NCBI RefSeq assembly: GCF_014203425.1 | Contig: NZ_JACHJC010000001.1 | Span: 1,364,001 to 1,428,000 of the forward strand | Length of the DNA stretch: 64,000 nucleotides | Direction of reading: 5' to 3' | DNA from: Micromonospora echinospora | Lineage (GTDB): Bacteria; Actinomycetota; Actinomycetes; Mycobacteriales; Micromonosporaceae | Shown: piece after piece, positions 45,373 to 57,734 of the stretch | Layout of the letters: every line of letters begins with the position of its first letter | Numbering within the stretch: the stretch's first letter is position 1 | Made by a program: the position numbers and the translations under genes | The notes under the pieces: model-generated | Databases searched by the model: none | What the model saw: only the letters and a program-made list of their open reading frames with translations | Told to the model about the DNA's origin: nothing

Positions 45373-46449
45373 ATGGTCGCAATCTCGTACGAGGACATCG
45401 TCAAGGTCCCGAAGGCGCTGCTGCACGATCACCTCGACGGCGGCCTGCGGCCCGCGACGATCGTCGAGCTGGCCGCCGAGGTCGGCCACGAACTGCCCAC
45501 CACCGACCCGGCGGCGCTCGGTGTCTGGTTCACCGAGGCGGCGAACTCCGGCTCGCTGGAGCGTTACCTGGAGACGTTCGCGCACACGGTGGCGGTCATG
45601 CAGACCGCCGGCGCGTTGCGCCGGGTCGCCCGCGAGTGCGCGCTGGACCTGGCCGCCGACGGCGTGGTCTACGCCGAGGTGCGGTTCGCCCCGGAGCAGC
45701 ACCTGGAGCAGAACCTGACGCTGGACGCGGTGGTCGACGCGGTGGTCACCGGGTTCCGGGAGGGCAGCGCGCTGGCCGCTGAGGCGGGCACCCCGATCCG
45801 GATCGGCACGCTGCTCACCGCGATGCGGCACGCCGCCCGCTCGCAGGAGATCGCCGAGCTGGCCGTGCGGCACCGCGACACCGGGGTGGTCGGCTTCGAC
45901 ATCGCCGGCGCCGAGGCGGGCTTCCCGCCCACCCGGCACCTGGACGCGTTCGAGTACCTCCAGCGGGAGAACTTCCACTTCACCATCCACGCCGGGGAGG
46001 CGTTCGGCCTGCCGTCGATCTGGCAGGCGATCCAGTGGTGCGGCGCCGATCGGCTCGGTCACGGCGTACGCATCGTCGACGACATCACCCCCGGCAACCC
46101 GCCGGTGCTGGGCCGACTGGCCGCGTACGTGCGGGACAAGCGCATCCCGCTGGAGCTGTGCCCGTCGTCGAACGTGCAGACCGGCGCGGCGGCCTCGATC
46201 GCCGACCACCCCATCGGCCTGCTGCGCGACCTGCGGTTCCGGGTGACCGTGAACACCGACAACCGGCTGATGAGCGGCACCTCGATGTCCCGGGAGATGG
46301 CGCTGCTGGTGGAGGCCTTCGGTTACGGCTGGAAGGAACTCCAGTGGTTCACCATCAACGCGATGAAGAGCGCGTTCATCCCGTTCGACGAGCGCCTGCG
46401 GATCATCGACGAGGTGATCAAGCCGGCGTACGCCGAGCTGATCGGCTGA
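45373..46449 (+). CDS. add: Adenosine deaminase
   Basis: A 358-aa metal-dependent amidohydrolase converting adenosine to inosine. Zinc ligands in [12 protein letters not shown], the catalytic region [27 protein letters not shown], and the PSSNVQTG and [10 protein letters not shown] stretches are all present. HDHLDGG replaces the more common HLHLDGA, a variant seen in actinobacterial Add. It completes purine nucleoside salvage for the importer encoded at 33.8-39.3 kb. Its stop directly abuts the convergent kinase stop. Confidence 0.94.
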
Positions 46450-47247: not shown

Positions 47248-50200
47248 GTGAGCAAACGGCCAACGACGGCGGGCTCCTTCCTGTCGCGGCTGCGCCGGCC
47301 GATGAATCGGCTGCGCGACATGCCGATCTGGTCCAAGCTCGGTCTGATCATGATCGTGCCGACCATCGCCACGGTCGTGGTGGGCACCAGTGGTCTGGTC
47401 GACCATCTGGAGACGCTCAACAGTGCCAACCGGGCGGGGGATCTGGCCAACCTGATCGGCTACTCGGGTGACCTGGTCGACACCGTGCAGGACGAGCGGG
47501 TCGGCGCCGTGCTCTTCCTCGGCGCGAAGGAGTTCCAGACCCGGGCGCAGTACCAGGAGGGCTACAACCGGACCAACCAGCGGGTGGACCAGGCGAAGTC
47601 GCCCTACCTGCGGCAGCGTGGCGAGATCGACGACCTGCCCCGCAACTTCGTCGGGCTGCTCGACACGATCGACACCCAGCTGAAGGACCTCCCGGCGACC
47701 CGGAGCCAGGTGCTGAACGGCAAGCTCAAGATCAATGACGCCGACCAGGCGTACCGGCAGCTGATCGAGGACCTGCTGTCGATCCGCGACTCGGCCACCC
47801 AGCTCGCCGGTGACAACGACCTGAGCGACCGGATGCGCGCGGCCGGCGCGGTGGCCCGGCAGAAGGAATACCTGACCCAGCGCCGCGTGGTCGTCCACCA
47901 GGCGATCACCCAGAACCAGTACACCGCCGCGCTGCGCGAGCAGTTCATCGCCAGCGGCACCGGCCAGGCGCAGTCGCTCGCGACGTTCCAGGCGATCGCC
48001 ACCGAGCCGGACAAGCTGTTCTACGACCAGACCGTCTCCGGGCCCGACCTGCGCAAGGCGGACCGCTTCACGAGTTTCATCTCCAGCAACAACAACGGCT
48101 CGATGGCGAACGCCCCGTTCGGCCCGGACCAGTGGGACCAGACCATGGTCGCCAACGCCAAGCTGATGCGCGGCGTGGAGTCCCGCCTCGACGGCAACGT
48201 GGTCCGGCAGGCCGACGCGCTGCGCTCGGACACCCAGCGCCAGGTGTTCCTGGAGACCGGCCTGCTGCTCACCATGCTGCTGCTGGCCATCCTCTTCGCG
48301 TACCTGGTCGCCCGCTCGATGGCCCGCTCGCTGCGCGACCTGCGCCAAGGTGCCCTGGCGGTGGCCCAGTACGGGCTGCCACAGGCGGTCGCCCGGCTAC
48401 GCGACCCGCAGGTGACCGGCCAGCTCACCCCGGTGCAGCTGGCCAACCAGATCGCCGAGCCGCTGCCGGTGCGCAGCAAGGACGAGTTCGGCCAGGTGAC
48501 CGAGGCGTTCAACGCCGTCCACCTGGAGGCCGTCCGGACCGCCGCCGAGCAGGCCGCCCTGCGGGCGTCGGTCGCCACCATGTTCGTCAACCTGGCCCGC
48601 CGCTCGCAGATCCTGGTCGACCGGCTGATCGGCCACCTCGACCGGCTGGAGCGCGGCGAGGAGGACCCGGACCGGCTCGCCGAGCTGTTCCAGCTCGACC
48701 ACCTGGCCACCCGGATGCGCCGCAACGACGAGAACCTGCTGGTGCTCGCCGGCGCGGACTCCACGCGCGTGCAGCGCGAGCCCGCCGCTCTGATCGACGT
48801 GCTCCGCGCCGCCCAGTCCGAGGTCGAGCACTACACCCGGATCGAGTTCGGGGTGATCGACCGGGACATCGAGGTCGCCGCCCACGCGGTGAACGACCTC
48901 GTGCACCTGGTCGCCGAGCTGTTCGACAACGCGACCGCGTTCTCCCCGCCCGACTCCCAGGTCATGGTGGAGGCCCGCCGGGTCGGCGACCGCGCCTCGC
49001 TCTACGTGGAGGACCGGGGCATCGGCATCAGCCCGGAGCAGCTCCGTGACCTCAACGAGCGGCTGGCCACGCCGCCGCAGGTGGACGTCGCGGTCTCCCG
49101 GATGATGGGCCTGGTCGTGGTGGCGCGGCTGGCCGCCCGCCACGGCGTCCGGGTCGAGCTGCGACCGGGCACCGACCGGGGCACCGTCGCCGACGTCACG
49201 CTGCCCACCACGGTCCTGGTGCCGCGCGCCCTGGCCGGCCGCGGACAGCCGGGGCCGGCCCTTCCGGCCGCCGGTCCGCAGCAGAGCGGCCCGACCCCGG
49301 CCTTCGGCGCCCTGGCCGCCTTCGGCGGCAACCCGCAGAGCCTGCCGCCGGCCCCGCACCCGGGTGCCTCCGGCAACCAGGTCACGCTCGGCGGACGCGC
49401 CTTCGACCCGGCGCCGCGCAACGGCGCGGGCACCCCGGCGAACGCCGGTGGCGGTCGCGCCATGCCGGCCTGGTCCGACCTGACCGGGGCGAACCCGGGC
49501 GGCGGGGACGGCGGGTTCGGCTCCCGGCCCTCGTCCGGTTCCGGGTTCGAGCCGCTTCCCCAGCGGCGCAACCCGGCCGAGGGCGACCCGGGCACCAGCG
49601 GCCAGCAGCCGGCGATCCCACGCCAGCTGCCGAGCAGCCCCGAGGCGCGGCCCTACAGCCCGCCGCCGGTGTCGGCGCCGCCGCTGCCGCCGGTCTCCGG
49701 CGCCCCGGCCGCCGGGCAGGCGCTGCCGTACCGTCCGGTCTCGGCCGCCCCGGTCTCCGGTGACCCGTGGTCCGGCCGTCCGGTCTCGGCCGCCCCGGTC
49801 TCCGGTGACCCGTGGTCCGGCCGCCCGGTCTCCGCTGCGCCGGTTTCCGGCCAGCCCACGTCGGCCGTGCCGGTCTCCGGTCAGCCGACCGGTTACCAGG
49901 TATCCGCGCCGCCGGCGAACCAGCTGCCGGCGCGCCCGGTGACGCAGACGCCGATGCCGGGCGTGGGCGCGCCGCCGGTCTGGCCGCCGGTCGCGCCGCC
50001 TCCGGCCCCGGCCCCCGTGGTGCCGGAACGGCCCACCAGCGGCATGGACATGACCACCGAGCTGCCCCGGGTGCCGCGCACGGAAATGCCGGCCACCTCG
50101 CAGCCCGCGACCGGCCAGCCGCCCGCCACCCCGGCGACGAACCGGCCGGCCGCCACCCCGGCGGCCCGGCCGGGCCCGGCGCAGCAGCAGGGCAACCGCC

Positions 50201-50874
50201 AGCGGTACGCGGACGAGACGATGGAGCTGCCGATCTTCCGGGAGCTGGAGTCGGCGTGGTTCCGTACCCGCCGGCCCGGGCCCCACGAGGAGGCGGCGGC
50301 CCCGGCCCCGGCCCCGGCCGCGACGACGAACGGCGGCGCCGCCACCCAGCAGTTCGCCAAGGTGGACACCGCCGGCCGGCCGGTGCCGCAGCCGACACCC
50401 GCAACGACAGGTAACGCACCGATGGCACCCACTCCGACGGCCGGCGGAGCACCGCGTGACAACGGCGCGGCGAACGGGAACACCCGTCCCGCGTACGCCG
50501 GAGGGCTGCCCACCCGGCAGCCGACCGCGTCGCCGCAGTCCTCGCCCTGGCAGACCGCGGCCGACGACGGCTGGCGCGCCGCCTCGGCGGCCACCGAGGT
50601 GCCGGTCGCGGAAACCACCCAGAAGGGCCTGCCGAAGCGGAAGCCGATGGCCCAGCTCGTGCCCGGCAGCATCGACAAGCCTTCTGCCTCGGTGCAGCGG
50701 CGGACACCGGAGGGCGTCCGGGGTCTGCTCTCGGCCTACCATCGGGGCGTGCAGCGCGGGCGTAACACCGACAGCAACACGACCGGCCCGGAGGGCACTC
50801 CGGGCGGGCAGCAGTCCTCGCAGTCTGGCTCAGGCCCGGTGGCCGGGAGCGGGCAGAAGGAGCAACAAGGATGA
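47248..50874 (+). CDS. Conservon sensor: nitrate/nitrite-sensor-like histidine-kinase ATPase (CvnA type)
   Basis: A 1208-aa membrane protein. TM1 is at about residues 28-50 and TM2 at about 331-357, enclosing an extracytoplasmic NIT-like helical sensor ([20 protein letters not shown]). A HAMP-like region follows, then a HATPase_c domain near residues 550-650 with the N-box [14 protein letters not shown] and EDRGIGIS. No phosphoacceptor His box is evident. Residues 670-1120 are Pro/Ala-rich with an exact 15-residue repeat. The end carries [12 protein letters not shown] (about 994), TAADDGW (about 1103), [15 protein letters not shown] (1127) and YHRG, shared with the 795-aa protein nearby. Its ATGA overlap starts the roadblock gene. 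GTG 47248 follows GAGGGCGGTGA. Confidence 0.88.
49735..49824 (+). repeat. Two tandem 45-bp in-frame repeats in the sensor gene
   Basis: Units 49735-49779 and 49780-49824 are identical except for the last base, each encoding [15 protein letters not shown]. Degenerate PVSxxPVSG copies flank them. The repeat lies in the disordered linker between the ATPase domain and the C-terminal signature and is likely length-variable between strains. Confidence 0.9.
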
Positions 50875-51275
50875 CTACTACGCAGGATCTCGGATGGCTG
50901 CTCGCCAACTTCGCCGACCGGGTGCCCGGTGTGGCGCACGCGGTCGCGGTCTCGGCCGACGGCCTGCTTCTCGCCTCGTCCCGTGACCTTCCGCGGGACC
51001 GCGCCGACCAGCTCGCCGCGATCGCGTCCGGTCTGGTCAGCCTGACCCAGGGCGCGGCCCGCTGCTTCGAGGGCGGAGCGGTGTTGCAGACAGTCGTCGA
51101 GATGGACAACGGTTTCCTGTTCCTGATGTCCATCTCCGACGGTTCGTCGTTCGCGGTGCTGGCGGCGCGGAGCTGCGACGTGGGTCAGGTCGGGTACGAG
51201 ATGGCCCTGCTCGTGGACCGGGTGGGCGATGCCCTGACGCCACAGCCGCGTACGGCTGTGGGGATGATGGGCTGA
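50871..51275 (+). CDS. Roadblock/LC7 domain protein (CvnB type)
   Basis: A 134-aa roadblock fold protein: [55 protein letters not shown] and the final helix. In conservons this protein is thought to act with the downstream GTPase like MglB with MglA, as a GTPase-activating partner. Starts by ATGA overlap with the sensor gene. Cytosolic. Confidence 0.92.
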
Positions 51276-51375
51276 ATGACGCGCTGGCCGGTGGGTCAGG
51301 TGCGGGAACAACAACGACAGCGACGGATGTCACCGGGGCGAGCCGGTGCCGGGTACGAGGGAGGTGAGCGGCGAC

Positions 51376-51753
51376 ATGATGGATCGTGACGAGCCGACCG
51401 GCGCACTGGTCCGGCCGTACGCCGTCACCCGTGGTCGTACCCGTCCCCGGCTCGACATCGCCCTGGAGGCGCTCGTCGAGACGACGGTGCGCGGCCGAGC
51501 GGTTGCCACTGGCAATGGTGGCCACGGTCGTGAACACCAGTACATCGCCGCGTTGTGTGACGGACGTGTGCAGTCGCTCGCCGAAATCGCGGCGCGGATG
51601 CAGCTTCCGCTCGGCGTGGCCCGGGTGCTCATCGCCGACATGGCGACGGACGGCCTGGTCGCAGTCCACGAGCCGACCATCCTGGACGACTCCGACGACG
51701 CGATGGGCACTGAACTGCTGGAGAGGGTGCTGAGTGGACTTCGCAGGCTCTGA
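51376..51753 (+). CDS. DUF742 protein (CvnC type)
   Basis: A 125-aa DUF742 protein with LVRPYAVTRGRTRPR and a winged-helix-like middle (HQYIAALCDGRVQSLAEIAA, LPLGVARVLIADMA). It is the third standard member of a conservon; function unknown, possibly an adaptor. ATG 51376 follows GGAGGTGA at about 9 nt; ATG 51379 and GTG 51346 are alternatives. Its 3' end overlaps the GTPase start by 20 bp. The 100-bp gap before it is the only gap in the operon. Confidence 0.9.
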   Translation: MMDRDEPTGALVRPYAVTRGRTRPRLDIALEALVETTVRGRAVATGNGGHGREHQYIAALCDGRVQSLAEIAARMQLPLGVARVLIADMATDGLVAVHEPTILDDSDDAMGTELLERVLSGLRRL

Positions 51754-52348
51754 CATGTCGCACCGGCCGCCGGCCCCGAGCGGGCGCGTGACGTCGGCGA
51801 AGATCGTTATCGCCGGTGGGTTCGGCGTCGGCAAGACGACGCTGGTCGGCTCGGTCTCGGAGATCACGCCGCTGACCACCGAGGCGATCATGACCTCCGC
51901 CGGTGTCGGCGTCGACGACACCCGGCAGGTGCCGGGCAAGACGACGACCACGGTGGCGATGGACTTCGGTCGTATCTCGATCGACCGTGACCTGATCCTG
52001 TACCTCTTCGGTACGCCGGGTCAGACGCGGTTCTGGTTCATGTGGGACGAGTTGGTCCGGGGTGCGATCGGCGCGGTGGTGCTGGTCGACACCCGGCGGC
52101 TCGCCGACTGCTTCGCCGCCATCGACTTCTTCGAGCACCGGCGGCTGCCGTACCTGGTGGCCATCAACTGCTTCGACGGCATGCAGTACCACGATCCGCA
52201 GGACGTCCGGGACGCGCTGGCGATCTCCCGCGACGTGCCGGTGGTGCCGTGCGACGCCCGTAACCGGGAGTCCACGAAGCACGTGCTCATCTCGCTCGTC
52301 GAGTACGTGCTCACCATGCGGCGCTCGCGGGCCGTCGCGCCCGCCTGA
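51734..52348 (+). CDS. Conservon small GTPase (CvnD type)
   Basis: A 204-aa Ras-like/MglA-like GTPase. P-loop VIAGGFGVGKTTLVGSVSEI near residues 24-44, then FGTPGQTRFWFMWDELVRGA (switch II, G3 as LFGTPGQ), and a weakly conserved G4 (VAINCFDG in place of NKxD). This is usual for the family. It is likely activated at the membrane through the sensor and roadblock proteins. The GTG start is inside the DUF742 gene. A strong hairpin ends the operon 9 bp after the stop. Confidence 0.93.
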   Translation: MDFAGSDMSHRPPAPSGRVTSAKIVIAGGFGVGKTTLVGSVSEITPLTTEAIMTSAGVGVDDTRQVPGKTTTTVAMDFGRISIDRDLILYLFGTPGQTRFWFMWDELVRGAIGAVVLVDTRRLADCFAAIDFFEHRRLPYLVAINCFDGMQYHDPQDVRDALAISRDVPVVPCDARNRESTKHVLISLVEYVLTMRRSRAVAPA

Positions 52349-52357
52349 CCGACGCGC

Positions 52358-52394
52358 GGAAGCGCCCGGCGGCCTGAGGCCACCGGGCGCTTCC
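52358..52394 (+). terminator. Terminator after conservon operon
   Basis: GGAAGCGCCCGG (52358-52369) pairs perfectly with 52383-52394; the loop contains an additional GGCCTGAGGCC stem. It lies between the convergent conservon operon and the binding-protein gene and could serve both. Confidence 0.75.
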
Positions 52395-52470
52395 TGCCGT
52401 CCGGGGTCGGACACGGTACGCGGTCGCCCGGTGACCCTCCAGGTAGGACGGTCGCCGGGCGGCGCCCCGG

Positions 52471-53691
52471 TCAGGCGTACCGGGTCCAGCTGCCCCGGTA
52501 GACCTGGTAGACGGCGAGCGAGTCGCGCTCCATGCCGCCGTGCCGCCCGGCGCTGAACGCGTACCCGCCCGCGATGCCCTCGACGGTCTGCGCCTGGAGC
52601 AGGGCCCGCAGCCGGCCCCGGTCCAGGCTCGTCGCCATCCGCGCCGACATGGCGAGGAGCTGGAGCGCGTCCGAGGCGTACGGGGCGAAGTCAGGGCTGC
52701 CGCCGTGCCGCTGCGTGTAGCGGTTGGCGAAGTCCCGCCGGGCCAGCTGCGCAGTGGTGGTGGCGATCGCCCCGGAGATGTCCAGACAGGCCGGGTGCAC
52801 CGCGTACGCGCCCTCCACCGCGGCGGCGTTGGCGCCCTGCACGGTGTCGTCGGCGACCGCGCCGGCGTCGAAGAAGATCGGGCCGCGGTGCCCGGCGGCG
52901 CGGAGTTCCCGGGCCGCGGCGCCGGAGTCCGGCGCGGTGGCCCAGATGACCACTCCGTCCTCCGCGCCGCCCGTGACCCGGTCGGCGGCGGCGCGGAAGC
53001 GCCGGCCGGTCCCCGGCAGGCGGACCGTGCGGGCCAGGTCGGTGCTGCTGTCGGCCAGCGCGTCCCGCATCGCCCGCACACCCGAGTCGCCGTGCAGCCC
53101 GTCCGCGGCCAGCAGGGACACCCGCCGGACCCGCTTCGACTCGAACAGCTCCACCAGGCGGCCTGCCATGTCGACGGCGTCCGGGGTGAGCTTGTAGGTG
53201 AACGTGCGCTCGTCCAGCGGCAGCACGATGCGGTCACCGTAACCGAGCGACAGGAAGGGCGTCTTGACCCGCTGGGCGGCCGCAGCCAGGGCGGCGGAGG
53301 TCTCGCCGAGCACGCCGCCGATCAGCGCCTGCGCCCCGGCCCGGGTCAGGTCTGCGGCATGACGGGCCGCCACCTGAGGATTGCTGCCGTTGTCCAGGAT
53401 CTGGAGCCGGACCGACCGGACCAGGTTGCCGACCGGGATGCCGGTGCGGTTGAGCGAGTCGGCGGTGAGCTGCAGGGCCTGCCGCTGGGCGACGCCGAGC
53501 ACTGCCCCCGCGCCGGTCAGCTCCAGACTCGCGCCGACGATCAGGTCCTGGTCGCTCGGCGCGCTGCTGGACGGGCCGTCGTCCGGCCGCTGGCCCTGCG
53601 GCGCGCAACCCGCGAGCAGCAGGCTCCCGGCCGCGGCGGCGAGGACGCCCCGACGGGTGAGCACAGTGGAGTCGAACGCCGGTGTCGCCAT
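52471..53691 (-). CDS. Type-1 periplasmic-binding-fold lipoprotein (branched-chain amino acid receptor family)
   Basis: A 406-aa lipoprotein with a twin-arginine-like start (VLTRRGVLAAAAGSLLLAGC, Cys at about residue 29), a Ser/Pro/Asp linker, and a Leu/Ile/Val-binding-protein fold (LIVGASLELTGAGAVLG, AQALIGGVLGETSAALAAA, GVVIWATAPDSGAAA). There is no permease or ATPase gene beside it. Its closeness to the conservon sensor suggests that it may be a ligand-presenting receptor instead of a transport component; this is inference. It probably begins a minus-strand transcript separate from the 795-aa gene upstream. Confidence 0.82.
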   Translation of the reverse strand: MATPAFDSTVLTRRGVLAAAAGSLLLAGCAPQGQRPDDGPSSSAPSDQDLIVGASLELTGAGAVLGVAQRQALQLTADSLNRTGIPVGNLVRSVRLQILDNGSNPQVAARHAADLTRAGAQALIGGVLGETSAALAAAAQRVKTPFLSLGYGDRIVLPLDERTFTYKLTPDAVDMAGRLVELFESKRVRRVSLLAADGLHGDSGVRAMRDALADSSTDLARTVRLPGTGRRFRAAADRVTGGAEDGVVIWATAPDSGAAARELRAAGHRGPIFFDAGAVADDTVQGANAAAVEGAYAVHPACLDISGAIATTTAQLARRDFANRYTQRHGGSPDFAPYASDALQLLAMSARMATSLDRGRLRALLQAQTVEGIAGGYAFSAGRHGGMERDSLAVYQVYRGSWTRYA

Positions 53692-53826
53692 TGGAATCGC
53701 CTTCCCACCCCGGCGATCAGGCGCCGCCGCTGGTCCGCCGGGTATGTTCCCGGCCGGTCCGACCCAGCGTCAAATCACCCGGGTGTGGGATGAAACACCC
53801 CAACTGCGGACTCAGCGAACCCCCGA

Positions 53827-56214
53827 TCAGGAGCGGTAGCCGGCCGAGCGGTACTCGTACTCCCGGTCGTCCTCGCGGTCCCCGCTGTCGCGGGTGAAGT
53901 CCCAACCGCCGGCCGCCTCGCGGCCCGGACGGCCGCCCACGGCGAAGCCGCCGATCTCCTGGCCACGCCGCCAGCCCCGGAAGTATCCGGTGGTGTTCTC
54001 GGCGAGGCTCGCCGCGTTCCGGACGATCCGCAGGGGACGCTCCTCGCGCAGCGGAGAGCCCGGCACCAGGTTGGCCTGCGGCACCCGCTTCGGCAGGCCG
54101 GCCTTGGTCTCCGAGCCGACGGACGGGCGGGCGGCCTGCTCGGCCGCCTGCCAGCCGGTGTCCGCAGTGGTGGACCACTCCAGGTCGGCCTCGTCGCCGT
54201 GCCCGACGAACCAGGCGGACTTGGCCTGCGCGAAGATCAGCAGGTCGCCGTCGCCGTCGTCGGAGACCGGCGGCGGCCGGTGCTCCTTCGGCGCGGGACG
54301 CCGCTCGGGCAGGGCCGGAAGAGAGGCGCGGCTCGGGTCGCCATGGTCGACGAGGCGTAGCGGCGGCGTCTCCAGCCCCGGATCGGCCGGCCGGCTCATC
54401 TCGCCGAGCAGCGCCCGGTCGGCCAGCGGCGGAGGCTCCACCAGCCGCAGCATCGGCGGCTCCTGCGGGAGGTCGTCGGCGAGCCACGGCGGGGTGACCC
54501 GGCCCGGGTCGCTCGGCGCGTCCACGCCCCGCCCGTACGGGTAGGTGGTGCCCTCCCGCTCCCGGGCGGTGTCGTCCTCGTTGTTCACCAGCGGCCAGTT
54601 CGCCCGGGAGCCCGGTGGCGCGGCCTCCGGCGCCGGCGGGCGCGGAGCCGGCACCGGGATGCTCAGGTCGGTGGCGCTGAACCCGCCGGTCGGCGGTTCC
54701 TGGTGCTGATTGGTCTTGGGACGGGGCGGGATGACGGTGCGCTGCCGCTCCGCCCGCGCCTTGTTGATCGCCGCGGTGGTCAGCGTCGGGCGGAACGGCT
54801 CGCCGGCCTCGGCCGGTGGCACGGCGCCGCGCGGCGACGGGGCGATCGGGGTGATGCCGGGCGGCGGCGGGGGCGGCGCCGAGATCGGCCGGTTGGTGGG
54901 TCCGTCCACCCGCGACGGCAGCGGCGCGCCGGTCGGCTCGGGCCGGGACTGCGGTGCGGAGGCCGGGCGGCCCAGCGAGGCCGCCGGGGCCACGGGCGTC
55001 ACCGGGGCCGGGGCGACCGGCGGAGGCGTGACCGGAGCGGGTGCGACGGGCGGCGGGGCGAGCGGCCGGGGCGTCGTCGTGGCGGCCGGGCCGGAGACCG
55101 GCTCGGGCCGGCCGCGGCGCCCGCCGGGAACCGGCTCCGGGCGGCCACGTCGCCCGGTCGGCTCGGGTGCGCCGGTCGGCTCGGGACGACCACGGTGGGA
55201 CGCCGGCTCGGCGACCGGCTCGGGCTGGACCGGCCGCACCGCACGCAGGTCGGTGGCCGGGGACAGCTCGTCGACCTGCTCACCGCGTCGGGCGGCGGCC
55301 CGGCGGCCGATGGCGGGCGCGAGAGCGGGAGCGGTGCGTTCGGCGAGCGCGCCCACGAGCGCGTCGCATCCGGCGTCACAGGTCCGGACGGAGGCGACCG
55401 CCTGCCGTACCGTCTCGGCGACGGCGGCGGTGAGCGTCCGGTTGACGGTGGCCCGCCGGGGCGTCTCGGAGATGGCGACCCGCAACGCGGTCACCGCGTC
55501 GGAAACGGCGTCGGCGTCCGCCACACCCTCGGCGGCCAGATGGGCGACCACCGCGTCGGCGGTCAGCCCGCCGTCCCGGCCACGGGCCGCGGAACCGGTG
55601 AGCATCCCCGGCTCGGGCAGCGCGTCGAGAACCGCGAGGGCGACCCGGTCCGCCGGGTCCGGGTACGCGCGCAGCGCGGCCGGGTAGAGCTCGCGGAGCA
55701 CCTCGCGCAGCGTCACCGCGGCCGAGTGGCGGCCGCTCGCGAGCGCCGCGTGCGCGGCCAGGACCTGCGTGTATCCGGCGAGTTCACGCGGCGCCGGGAG
55801 GGTCACCGCGGAGAGCGCGCCGGCCTGCAGCGCGCGGGCCAGCCCGACCGCGCGGCGCTCGGCGGGCGAGGACTGCATCTCCTCCAGGGAGTCGTCGTCG
55901 GCGAAGCGCTCGGCGAAGTCGTCGACCGAGTCGTCGTCGGCGATCGCCAGCGGACGGCCGGCGGCGCTCAGCAGCGAGGTGACGATGTGGTCGTCGCTGT
56001 CCGCCGCGATGGCCGCGCCGCTCGGACCGCCGGACCGCTCCACCAGCAGCGCGACCAGCTGGGCGTACCCGGCGGCCTCGTCCCCGATCTCACAGACGTG
56101 CAGCAGACGGCCTGCGTCGTCGACCACAGCGGACGTCAGCGTCGTTCCGGCCGAAGCCGTTCGGTCGGCCGGATCTGCCGAGGCCAGACCGCAGTACACG
56201 CGCACGAGCGCCAC
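53827..56214 (-). CDS. IS110-transposase-like N-terminal domain protein with CvnA-type C-terminal signature
   Basis: A 795-aa protein starting at GTG 56214, with GGAGGAGG at about 9 nt. Residues 1-185 follow the outline of DEDD (IS110) transposase N-domains: TSAVVDDAGRLLHVCEI, AAGYAQLVALL, VTSLLSAAGRPLAI, then ERRAVGLARALQAGALSAV and a helical LREVLRELYPAALRAYPDP. The catalytic Asp/Glu positions look replaced (VYCGLAS where DxHK is expected). Residues 185-340 are Ala-rich helical; 340-640 are Pro/Arg low complexity with repeated RRGRPEP. The C-terminus has LLIFAQAKSAWF (about 658), TADTGW (about 688), GLPKRVPQANLVPGS (706) and YFRG (about 736), matching the conservon sensor's end. No terminal inverted repeats or zinc-ribbon domain, so not a mobile element. 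Function unknown. Confidence 0.75.
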   Translation of the reverse strand: MALVRVYCGLASADPADRTASAGTTLTSAVVDDAGRLLHVCEIGDEAAGYAQLVALLVERSGGPSGAAIAADSDDHIVTSLLSAAGRPLAIADDDSVDDFAERFADDDSLEEMQSSPAERRAVGLARALQAGALSAVTLPAPRELAGYTQVLAAHAALASGRHSAAVTLREVLRELYPAALRAYPDPADRVALAVLDALPEPGMLTGSAARGRDGGLTADAVVAHLAAEGVADADAVSDAVTALRVAISETPRRATVNRTLTAAVAETVRQAVASVRTCDAGCDALVGALAERTAPALAPAIGRRAAARRGEQVDELSPATDLRAVRPVQPEPVAEPASHRGRPEPTGAPEPTGRRGRPEPVPGGRRGRPEPVSGPAATTTPRPLAPPPVAPAPVTPPPVAPAPVTPVAPAASLGRPASAPQSRPEPTGAPLPSRVDGPTNRPISAPPPPPPGITPIAPSPRGAVPPAEAGEPFRPTLTTAAINKARAERQRTVIPPRPKTNQHQEPPTGGFSATDLSIPVPAPRPPAPEAAPPGSRANWPLVNNEDDTAREREGTTYPYGRGVDAPSDPGRVTPPWLADDLPQEPPMLRLVEPPPLADRALLGEMSRPADPGLETPPLRLVDHGDPSRASLPALPERRPAPKEHRPPPVSDDGDGDLLIFAQAKSAWFVGHGDEADLEWSTTADTGWQAAEQAARPSVGSETKAGLPKRVPQANLVPGSPLREERPLRIVRNAASLAENTTGYFRGWRRGQEIGGFAVGGRPGREAAGGWDFTRDSGDREDDREYEYRSAGYRS

Positions 56215-56278
56215 GGCGTCGTCCTCCTCCCGGGACACAGGTCTTGTTCTGCCAGAGACTGATGCTCCCCGCTCCGGG

Positions 56279-57247
56279 TCAGTCGCGCCAGTCCACAACC
56301 GCAGAGATCTTGCCGACAATGGTGCGCCAACCCAAACTTGCGGTTTGTGCCCCGATTTTCTTCAACCGGCGACGGCCGAGGAAACCACCGATTCCGCCAT
56401 TGACGGAAGCCCGCAGCGCCTCGTCCAGATCGTCCAGGCTGGAGCCGGCGGAGAGCATGTCCAGCACGGCTGGTAACCGCAGGGCGTACGCCAGGTCACG
56501 GGCGATCTCACCGGCTTCGATGAGCAACTCGTGGTCCCACGCGTCGTGGCCACCGCGCAGGTTCTCCACCACCAGGTCGAGTTCGTAGGTGTCCTCGTCC
56601 AGCGGAGCGATGTCGGCCGGTTCCAGCCGTTCGGACAATTCATTCCAGCTGTCCAGTTGGGACATGTCGTTGGGCGCGCCGGAGCGGATGAAAGAGACCA
56701 ATGACTCCGGGGTCTTGAACAGCAGGAGCCGGCCCTTGTGGGTGAGGAAGGCCGGCACCTCCTCGTCGCCCGCGGCGTCTTCGTCCTCGTCCTCGTCGTC
56801 TTCCTCGGCCTCTTCGTCGTCGTCCTCGGACTCGGCCTTGTCCTCGGCCGCGTCGTCGTCGGCCTTGCCCTTGCGGCGCCCCTTGGCGGCCTTCTCGGCC
56901 TTCTCGTCGTCCTCCTCGGCGGAGAGGGCGGCGAACTCCTCGTCGAGGATCACCACCTCCTCGTCGTCCTCGGTCTCGACGACCTGGCGACGGGCCAGGA
57001 AGGGGTCGTCCTGGTCGCGCTCGACGACGTCGGTCGGGGTCAGCTCGCGCGCCGGCCGGTACGCCCGCAGCGTGAAACCGGTGCCGGCGGGCAGCGCGAT
57101 CTCCACCGGGTCGATCCGCACCTCGTCCCAGAGCGCGCGGTTGACCGGCGGGCGGTCCGCCTCGACCTCGTCGGCTGCGGCGGGCGCCTCGGTGTCGTCG
57201 AGCTCGGGCTCGTCGGCGTCGGGCCGTTGGGGCGACTGGCGGGCCAC
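56279..57247 (-). CDS. Hypothetical acidic protein
   Basis: A 322-aa cytosolic protein. The N-terminal half (to about residue 190) holds RIDPVEIALPAGTGFTLRAY and very acidic stretches rich in Asp and Glu around a Lys-rich patch (KAAKGRRKGKAD). The C-terminal half is folded-looking: PAFLTHKGRLLLFKTPESLVSF, DLVVENLRGGHDAWDHELLI and AGEIARDLAYALRLPAVLDM. GTG 57247 follows GGAGG at 8 nt. It is 64 bp upstream of the 795-aa gene on the same strand, so the two are probably cotranscribed. I do not recognise a function. Confidence 0.7.
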   Translation of the reverse strand: MARQSPQRPDADEPELDDTEAPAAADEVEADRPPVNRALWDEVRIDPVEIALPAGTGFTLRAYRPARELTPTDVVERDQDDPFLARRQVVETEDDEEVVILDEEFAALSAEEDDEKAEKAAKGRRKGKADDDAAEDKAESEDDDEEAEEDDEDEDEDAAGDEEVPAFLTHKGRLLLFKTPESLVSFIRSGAPNDMSQLDSWNELSERLEPADIAPLDEDTYELDLVVENLRGGHDAWDHELLIEAGEIARDLAYALRLPAVLDMLSAGSSLDDLDEALRASVNGGIGGFLGRRRLKKIGAQTASLGWRTIVGKISAVVDWRD

Positions 57248-57378
57248 GCTGACCTCCGTGTGCGTTCGGTTGCCCACCCGGCGGCGTCGCGCCGCCGAGT
57301 GACTCTGCGCACATACCCTAGTGGGCGAACCGTTCCGGCCGGGAGCCGCACCCCATGGCGTTCCGGAGACCCGACAAG

Positions 57379-57384
57379 TAGCGT
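57379..57384 (+). promoter_or_regulatory. Putative leaderless -10 for padR
   Basis: TAGCGT is followed by 8 nt and ATG 57393. GTAGC-GTT-GCTAC (57378-57390) forms a small inverted repeat over this region that may be the PadR operator. Confidence 0.4.
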
Positions 57385-57392
57385 TGCTACGC

Positions 57393-57734
57393 ATGAAGGC
57401 GCAGGCGCTGCACGGACACCTCGACGCGCTGCTGCTCGCCGTGCTGGAACAGGGCCCGCGGCACGGCTACGCGATCATCGAGGCGCTTCGCGCCCGCAGC
57501 GGCGGGACGCTGGATCTGCCCACCGGCACCATCTATCCGGCGCTGCGCCGGCTGGAGCGGGCCGGGCTGGTGGCCAGCACGTGGAGCACCGTCAACGGCC
57601 GGGAACGCCGCACCTACGAGCTGACCGAGGCCGGTGGCCGGGCGCTGGCCGGGGAGCGGGCCGGCTGGCGCGAGTTCAGCGCCACCGTCGGCCGGTTCCT
57701 CGGGGCGGACGAGCCGCCCACGGCGCCGGCCTGA
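57393..57734 (+). CDS. PadR family transcriptional regulator
   Basis: A 113-aa winged-helix regulator of the short PadR (subfamily 2) type: HLDALLLAVLEQGPRHGYAI, LPTGTIYPALRRLERAGLVA and NGRERRTYELTEAGGRAL. ATG 57393 is supported by a leaderless-type -10. PadR genes of this type often sit beside a HAAS-domain membrane protein that they regulate. Here that partner is the next gene, but it is convergent. Confidence 0.88.
   Translation: MKAQALHGHLDALLLAVLEQGPRHGYAIIEALRARSGGTLDLPTGTIYPALRRLERAGLVASTWSTVNGRERRTYELTEAGGRALAGERAGWREFSATVGRFLGADEPPTAPA

Follow-up and report, generated by a model that had tools for sequence, protein, structure and literature searches.

An IS110-derived protein with the C-terminal tail of a conservon sensor in Micromonosporaceae

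A conservon and a convergent transposase-fold gene

We analysed a 64,000-nucleotide stretch of the Micromonospora echinospora genome (hereafter the window), positions 1364001-1428000 of a single contig of 7,125,866 bases, in which a conservon of the actinobacterial G-protein system (AGPS), CvnA-CvnB-CvnC-CvnD, occupies positions 47248-52348 of the plus strand and a protein of transposase fold, here labelled TnpL, is encoded at 53827-56238 on the minus strand. CvnA (47248-50874) is a sensor kinase-like protein of 1208 aa with Pfam NIT (E = 4e-42), HATPase_c (2e-14) and HAMP (8e-6) domains, and its C-terminal tail module (50227-50763) was recognised by a profile match to the tail of TnpL. The ATG of CvnB, a roadblock/LC7 protein (50871-51275; PF03259, 4.5e-23), overlaps the CvnA stop codon as ATGA; CvnC (51346-51753; DUF742, PF05331, 3.7e-30) and CvnD, a small Ras-like GTPase (51734-52348; PF03029, 7e-34, with weak Ras and GTP_EFTU matches), follow, all four genes lying on the plus strand. 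TnpL is convergent with this cluster, and a periplasmic-binding-type gene (52471-53691, minus strand; PF13458) lies between it and CvnD.

An earlier note on this DNA had described TnpL as a 795-aa protein. The start conserved in many deposited homologues is a GTG at 56238, giving a product of 803 aa (VSREEDDAVALV), and both forms are covered by our label. The protein begins with a RuvC-like domain of RNase H fold in which the catalytic DEDD positions are replaced (residues 10-149; 55792-56211), continues through a helical, coiled-coil-like region (residues 151-305; 55324-55788; helices predicted at 151-184 and 267-302) and a Pro-rich linker that is less conserved in the conservation profile (residues 306-660; 54259-55323), and ends in a region that bears the shared tail (residues 661-803; 53830-54258; LLIF..SAWF, W..DTGW, GLPKRVPQANLVPGS, YFRGWRRGQ), all on the minus strand. 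The median ratio of nonsynonymous to synonymous substitution (dN/dS), taken over 2,831 non-independent pairs, is 0.17 for the RuvC-like domain, 0.195 for the tail and 0.48 for the linker, the two low values indicating purifying selection on domain and tail. No Pfam family was found in TnpL at E ≤ 1, and comparison with Pfam, NCBIfam and PDB sequences returned nothing useful. Short conserved motifs were also seen within the otherwise loose linker, at residues 481-509, 544-553 and 581-603 (803-aa numbering), around PFRPTLTTAAIN, SRANWPLVNN and VTPPWLADDLP; these are possible further docking sites.

The two ends of TnpL

The earlier note had reported that TnpL and CvnA share a C-terminal signature, and we found the two reading frames and the four motifs at the places it gave. 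In CvnA they lie on the plus strand at 50227-50262, 50548-50574 (WQTAADDGW), 50626-50670 and 50737-50763 (YHRGVQRGR), and in TnpL on the minus strand at 54208-54243 (LLIFAQAKSAWF), 54151-54177 (WSTTADTGW), 54055-54099 (GLPKRVPQANLVPGS) and 53959-53985 (YFRGWRRGQ). Its spacings from LVPGS to YxRG (22 and 23 residues) hold, but GW and GLPKR are 17 residues apart in both proteins, not 17 in one and 16 in the other. The distance from SAWF to GW is 102 residues in CvnA and 17 in TnpL.

By BLAST the two proteins match at 37% over 89 aa (E = 2e-9), and a profile-profile comparison of the TnpL tail (75 loci) with the CvnA tail (65 loci) scored 84.3 (E = 1.7e-13; 39% over 71 columns). In a column-shuffle control 299 of 300 shuffles scored at most 24.2 and one reached 137.3, above the true score, by way of scrambled gap columns; when only columns at least 90% occupied were shuffled, the best of 200 runs was 21.6 against a true 83.7. 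The TnpL tail alone, used in tblastn against 7.3 Gb of plasmids, retrieved CvnA tails from other families with E values down to 6e-6, and its tblastn matches include those of Rhodococcus, Nocardia and Nonomuraea. Run on 14,888 open frames from the window and the loci described below, a tail hidden Markov model (HMM) gave E values of 3e-10 to 1e-12 for other-family CvnA tails, and the five proteins concerned contain HATPase domains. A search for the tail with a Nonomuraea CvnA query found a HATPase domain in all of the 120 matches listed out of 785. The shuffles and searches rule out chance or low complexity as the source of the similarity, and at the level of sequence the homology of the two tails is confirmed.

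The tail also aligns across homologues, as the earlier note had expected. A contig scan yielded 163 relatives, of which 80 were kept as named loci, and 75 of these 80 TnpL open frames contain the tail, the other five ending at contig ends. Among the CvnA frames it is present in 65 of 65 by AWF and in 64 of 65 by the GLPxR pattern, the tail of the exception (L047) sitting in a separate frame. Ten columns (W, T, G-L-P, R, P, L-V and G) are invariant in a 16-row alignment of tail carriers from four families. This is contrary to the statement, in the accessible part of a 2026 preprint (PMC13015309), that the longer C-terminal domain of the actinobacterial CvnA homologue lacks notable sequence conservation. 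TnpL carries a tail module of the CvnA type as defined here; we found no published definition of such a module.

The other end of the protein had been likened to an IS110 DEDD transposase domain that had apparently lost its catalytic residues, and both parts of this reading held up. BLAST, profile comparison and structure prediction all show the N-terminus to be IS110-like: identity is 35% over 185 columns and likewise 35% to an IS110 transposase across residues 6-184 of the 795-aa form, and the top Foldseek rows for the predicted structure are IS110 recombinases. In TnpL, as in those recombinases (IS117, IS621, ISCro4; PF01548 plus PF02371), a RuvC-like domain with an RNase H fold of PF01548 type precedes a helical region. 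A dimerising coiled coil follows the RuvC domain of IS621; the VIA matches of TnpL residues 151-305 are Nop5-type coiled coils, not IS621.

TnpL differs from IS110 recombinases in its DEDD residues, all four of which are required in IS621. Across 11 TnpL rows the first Asp is replaced by Ala or Thr, the Glu by Asp and the third residue is not Asp; the fourth position is occupied by Arg in the main clade and by Asp and Ile, respectively, in two divergent groups, g3 (10 genomes of one genus) and g4 (one genome of a related genus). Both groups keep an Asp at most one residue from the last two DEDD positions, both of these calls being alignment-dependent. In a 32-row alignment A19 is conserved in at least 90% of rows, and D80, R128 and R129 are invariant. 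The Tnp domain with the catalytic serine (PF02371), which scores 46-56 bits in four IS110 relatives, had no match in TnpL at either E ≤ 1 or E ≤ 10. The RuvC-like domain has a mean net charge of -13.6 in 76 TnpL proteins compared with -1 to -3 in four IS110 relatives, and this strongly acidic character argues against work on nucleic acids. TnpL further departs from IS110 in its Pro-rich linker and conservon tail, its fixed synteny and its single copy, with one N-terminal match (E ≤ 1e-20) per genome in 79 of 79 genomes. Judged by residues, Tnp domain and mobility, TnpL is, on sequence evidence, a descendant of IS110 proteins that is not an active recombinase. Single copy, fixed synteny and the missing PF02371 exclude an ordinary mobile transposase, the name that NCBI gives to most of the TnpL homologues among the listed 120 of 898 protein relatives (the first homologue search scored 8000 candidates). 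Those of the 120 that carry an organism name come from Micromonospora.

Distribution and gene neighbourhood

TnpL is present in 87 of 87 sampled Micromonosporaceae genomes. Of 397 genomes of the order, 79 match the N-terminus once each at E ≤ 1e-20; the eight family genomes with no such match each encode a frame of 513-561 aa with the tail, confirmed as a divergent TnpL. No N-terminal match was found in the 310 genomes of other families at E ≤ 1e-20, a threshold that also missed those 8 of 87 family genomes. The kept loci come from Micromonospora, Verrucosispora, Salinispora, Plantactinospora, Mangrovihabitans, Actinoplanes-type genera, Couchioplanes, Hamadaea and others, all genera of Micromonosporaceae, a placement checked for two of them. 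A search for the tail, covering 20 of 21 selected sequence sets (all except L001), found six CvnA-like frames with the tail in the window genome, two of them weak (E = 0.0009 and 1e-6). It gave matches in four of eight genomes from other families, all in frames of 795-1389 aa, and the frame fetched from each of these four resembles CvnA and has roadblock and GTPase genes as neighbours.

The place of TnpL is strongly conserved. In the window a SatS-like gene (56279-57394, minus strand; NCBIfam SatS 40.7 bits, far under the cut-off of 700) ends 40 bases upstream of the TnpL start, and such a gene lies directly upstream of TnpL on the same strand in 80 of the 80 named loci. CvnD was found in 71 of the 80, always downstream of and convergent with TnpL, the other nine loci ending short of it, and the periplasmic-binding gene in 25. 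An adenosine deaminase-like gene (ADA; 45373-46449, plus strand), the neighbour on the CvnA side, occurs in 63 of the 80; its identity is presumed from the sequence. In M. tuberculosis satS lies close to the adenosine deaminase gene, so that the two may be an old pair with TnpL and the conservon now between them; the ADA gene is outside the mechanism that we propose below.

A different arrangement is found in g3 and g4, in which the N-terminus of TnpL is 27-32% identical to that of the window protein and the tail is intact. In all 11 of these genomes a second roadblock gene directly follows TnpL on the same strand. Two of the 11 were matched to PF03259 (59.4 and 68.6 bits; E = 3e-16 and 4e-19; cut-off 23), and the other nine were assigned by tblastn to the two tested. 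The g3 and g4 proteins share 75-77% identity with each other and 41-43% with the CvnB encoded in the window. The stop codon of TnpL overlaps the roadblock ATG as ATGA in 10 of 10 g3 loci, the same coupling as between CvnA and CvnB in the window; in g4 the only roadblock start candidate found is a TTG 15 bases past TnpL. About 176 kb separate the g4 pair from the conservon, and in one g3 genome (G099) pair and conservon are on different contigs; at the two loci so placed (L165 in g4, L179 in g3) the roadblock gene is the sole AGPS core gene found beside TnpL. These roadblock proteins have PF03259 (in the two tested) in common with MglB, CvnB and MfpD and are paired with TnpL, not with a sensor. 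In a tree of CvnB, CvnC and CvnD combined (29 rows, rooted on a paralogue), g3 and g4 form one clade (support 100) that branches beside the rest of the family (support 77), so that gain and loss of the TnpL-side roadblock gene are equally simple.

A possible role for TnpL and its tail

The pairing in 11 of 11 g3 and g4 genomes lends support to a proposal of the earlier note that both tails might dock on a common partner such as the roadblock protein. The roadblock gene is coupled to tail-bearing genes in both contexts, after CvnA as CvnB and after TnpL as its own partner, which makes docking on the roadblock protein the simplest fit. With slightly more confidence than doubt, we propose that TnpL is a nuclease-dead, IS110-derived scaffold that joined the AGPS by way of the CvnA tail, this tail being a roadblock-docking module. 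On the strength of gene order, the tail would be a short module that docks the dimer of a roadblock protein of the CvnB/MglB type. In CvnA it would hold this GTPase-regulating subunit at the membrane sensor, and in TnpL it would bring a roadblock protein onto a soluble scaffold that may dimerise through its coiled coil. The partner would be TnpL's own roadblock protein in g3 and g4; for Micromonospora and Actinoplanes it would probably be the CvnB that the neighbouring conservon encodes. The outcome could be a second, kinase-independent input to the GTPase CvnD, or a reservoir competing with CvnA for the roadblock protein.

The tail also looks portable, since a carrier without a kinase domain exists in Streptomyces: a plasmid frame (L005:4176-5390) encodes 404 aa from a GTG, with the tail and, judged by eye, a hydrophobic N-terminal segment, and has Streptomyces relatives of 281-284 aa (P0320, P0326, P0336) that are not marked as partial. 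The L005 frame that follows this gene has no Pfam match. Near TnpL, two tail HMMs run over the same 14,888 open frames revealed no convincing third carrier; they listed 192 and 202 frames at E ≤ 10, and beyond CvnA, TnpL and the L005 frame the printed matches had E values of 0.004 or worse. Two Streptomyces frames that combine tail and roadblock domain (P0294, P0313) were not relied on as natural fusions, as they probably reflect a CvnA end shifted into CvnB. Separately, one locus (L167; G142:C5, 5914-6921) has a 336-aa frame that combines a CvnA-like part with the tail and overlaps another frame matching roadblock; it is perhaps a short or broken CvnA.

Several observations weigh against roadblock docking. 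No roadblock gene was found on the TnpL strand in the 80 loci L011-L090, 69 of which extend at least 1.5 kb after TnpL, so that a shared CvnB must be assumed in that clade, and none was seen beside the Streptomyces tail protein in the annotation of two plasmids. AlphaFold2, applied to P0294 and judged by block values of the predicted local distance difference test only, gave the tail 42-73, with two short helices and no confident docking. The role of the roadblock protein is disputed as well: the part of PMC13343842 available to us has it as a GTPase-activating protein (GAP), and a figure legend of PMC13015309 as a guanine nucleotide exchange factor. MfpD, which corresponds to CvnB in the Mfp system, is reported to act as a GAP on the GTPase (the same part of PMC13343842; title of PMC9769811).

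Other readings of the same data have to be considered. The tail could dock on another common partner (CvnC, CvnD, the kinase core of CvnA or the membrane), the roadblock gene of g3 and g4 being placed after TnpL for co-expression only. The conservon genes are all co-inherited, so that gene order singles out no partner, and the last tail motif is an Arg-rich helix that could touch lipid (the stretch GLPKR..RGQ has a mean net charge of +4.5); we nevertheless consider this unlikely, given the two loci at which the roadblock gene is the sole AGPS core gene found beside TnpL and the ATGA that couples CvnA to a roadblock gene too. Bridge RNA and DNA are bound by IS110 recombinases, and the AGPS as listed in the available part of PMC13343842 comprises four core and two accessory kinds of protein, no transcription factor among them; TnpL might on these grounds be a nucleic-acid-binding output, its fold holding DNA or a bridge-like RNA and its tail recruiting it to the GTPase module. 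We regard such an output as improbable, and it is disfavoured on the basis of charge in particular, the RuvC-like domain being acidic, its catalytic positions replaced and no Tnp domain found.

A decoy or antagonist, whose copy of the sensor tail titrates the roadblock protein away from CvnA, would explain the same tail on a separate, convergent gene with a long flexible linker and no sensory or kinase domain. It would hardly need purifying selection as strong as that on the fold (dN/dS 0.17), nor a roadblock partner gene of its own in g3 and g4, and seems to us still more improbable. Finally, the NCBI name, the Pro-rich character of both linkers and the one shuffle in 300 that exceeded the true score could be held to favour a chance or low-complexity resemblance, or an ordinary transposase. 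Shuffles of well-occupied columns, the single N-terminal match in each of the 79 matching genomes, the fixed synteny, the purifying selection and the absence of a PF02371 match make this barely credible.

TnpL is not CvnA, CvnE or CvnF. CvnA sensors (PMC13343842, PMC8510531) share with it the C-terminal tail and the order of tail gene then roadblock gene (for TnpL, in g3 and g4), but NIT, HAMP and HATPase domains were not found in TnpL. Like CvnE (a cytochrome P450) and CvnF (a GAF domain protein), it is a non-core protein encoded beside a conservon; unlike them, it showed neither a P450 nor a GAF domain. According to the accessible part of PMC13343842, CvnE and CvnF overwhelmingly accompany CvnA proteins that have no sensory domain, whereas a NIT domain is present in the CvnA beside TnpL in the window. 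Neither transposase nor C-terminal occurs as a word in the main text of PMC13343842 or PMC8510531, and in the open-licence literature, surveyed by titles and beginnings of abstracts, we found no description of a dead IS110 protein with a conservon tail.

The tail points to an overlooked module of AGPS sensors. More tentatively, and with doubt somewhat prevailing, we suggest that it serves roadblock proteins as a general and portable address tag, with which Micromonosporaceae have turned a dead IS110 recombinase into a second arm of signalling by Ras-like GTPases, one that is independent of the kinase and in some genera includes a dedicated roadblock subunit. If the tail docks a roadblock protein, the communication between sensor and GTPase module would become testable with a short peptide. 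If our proposal is true, a bacterial transposase fold would have been recruited to small-GTPase signalling in every sampled genome of one family, mostly in one conserved place.

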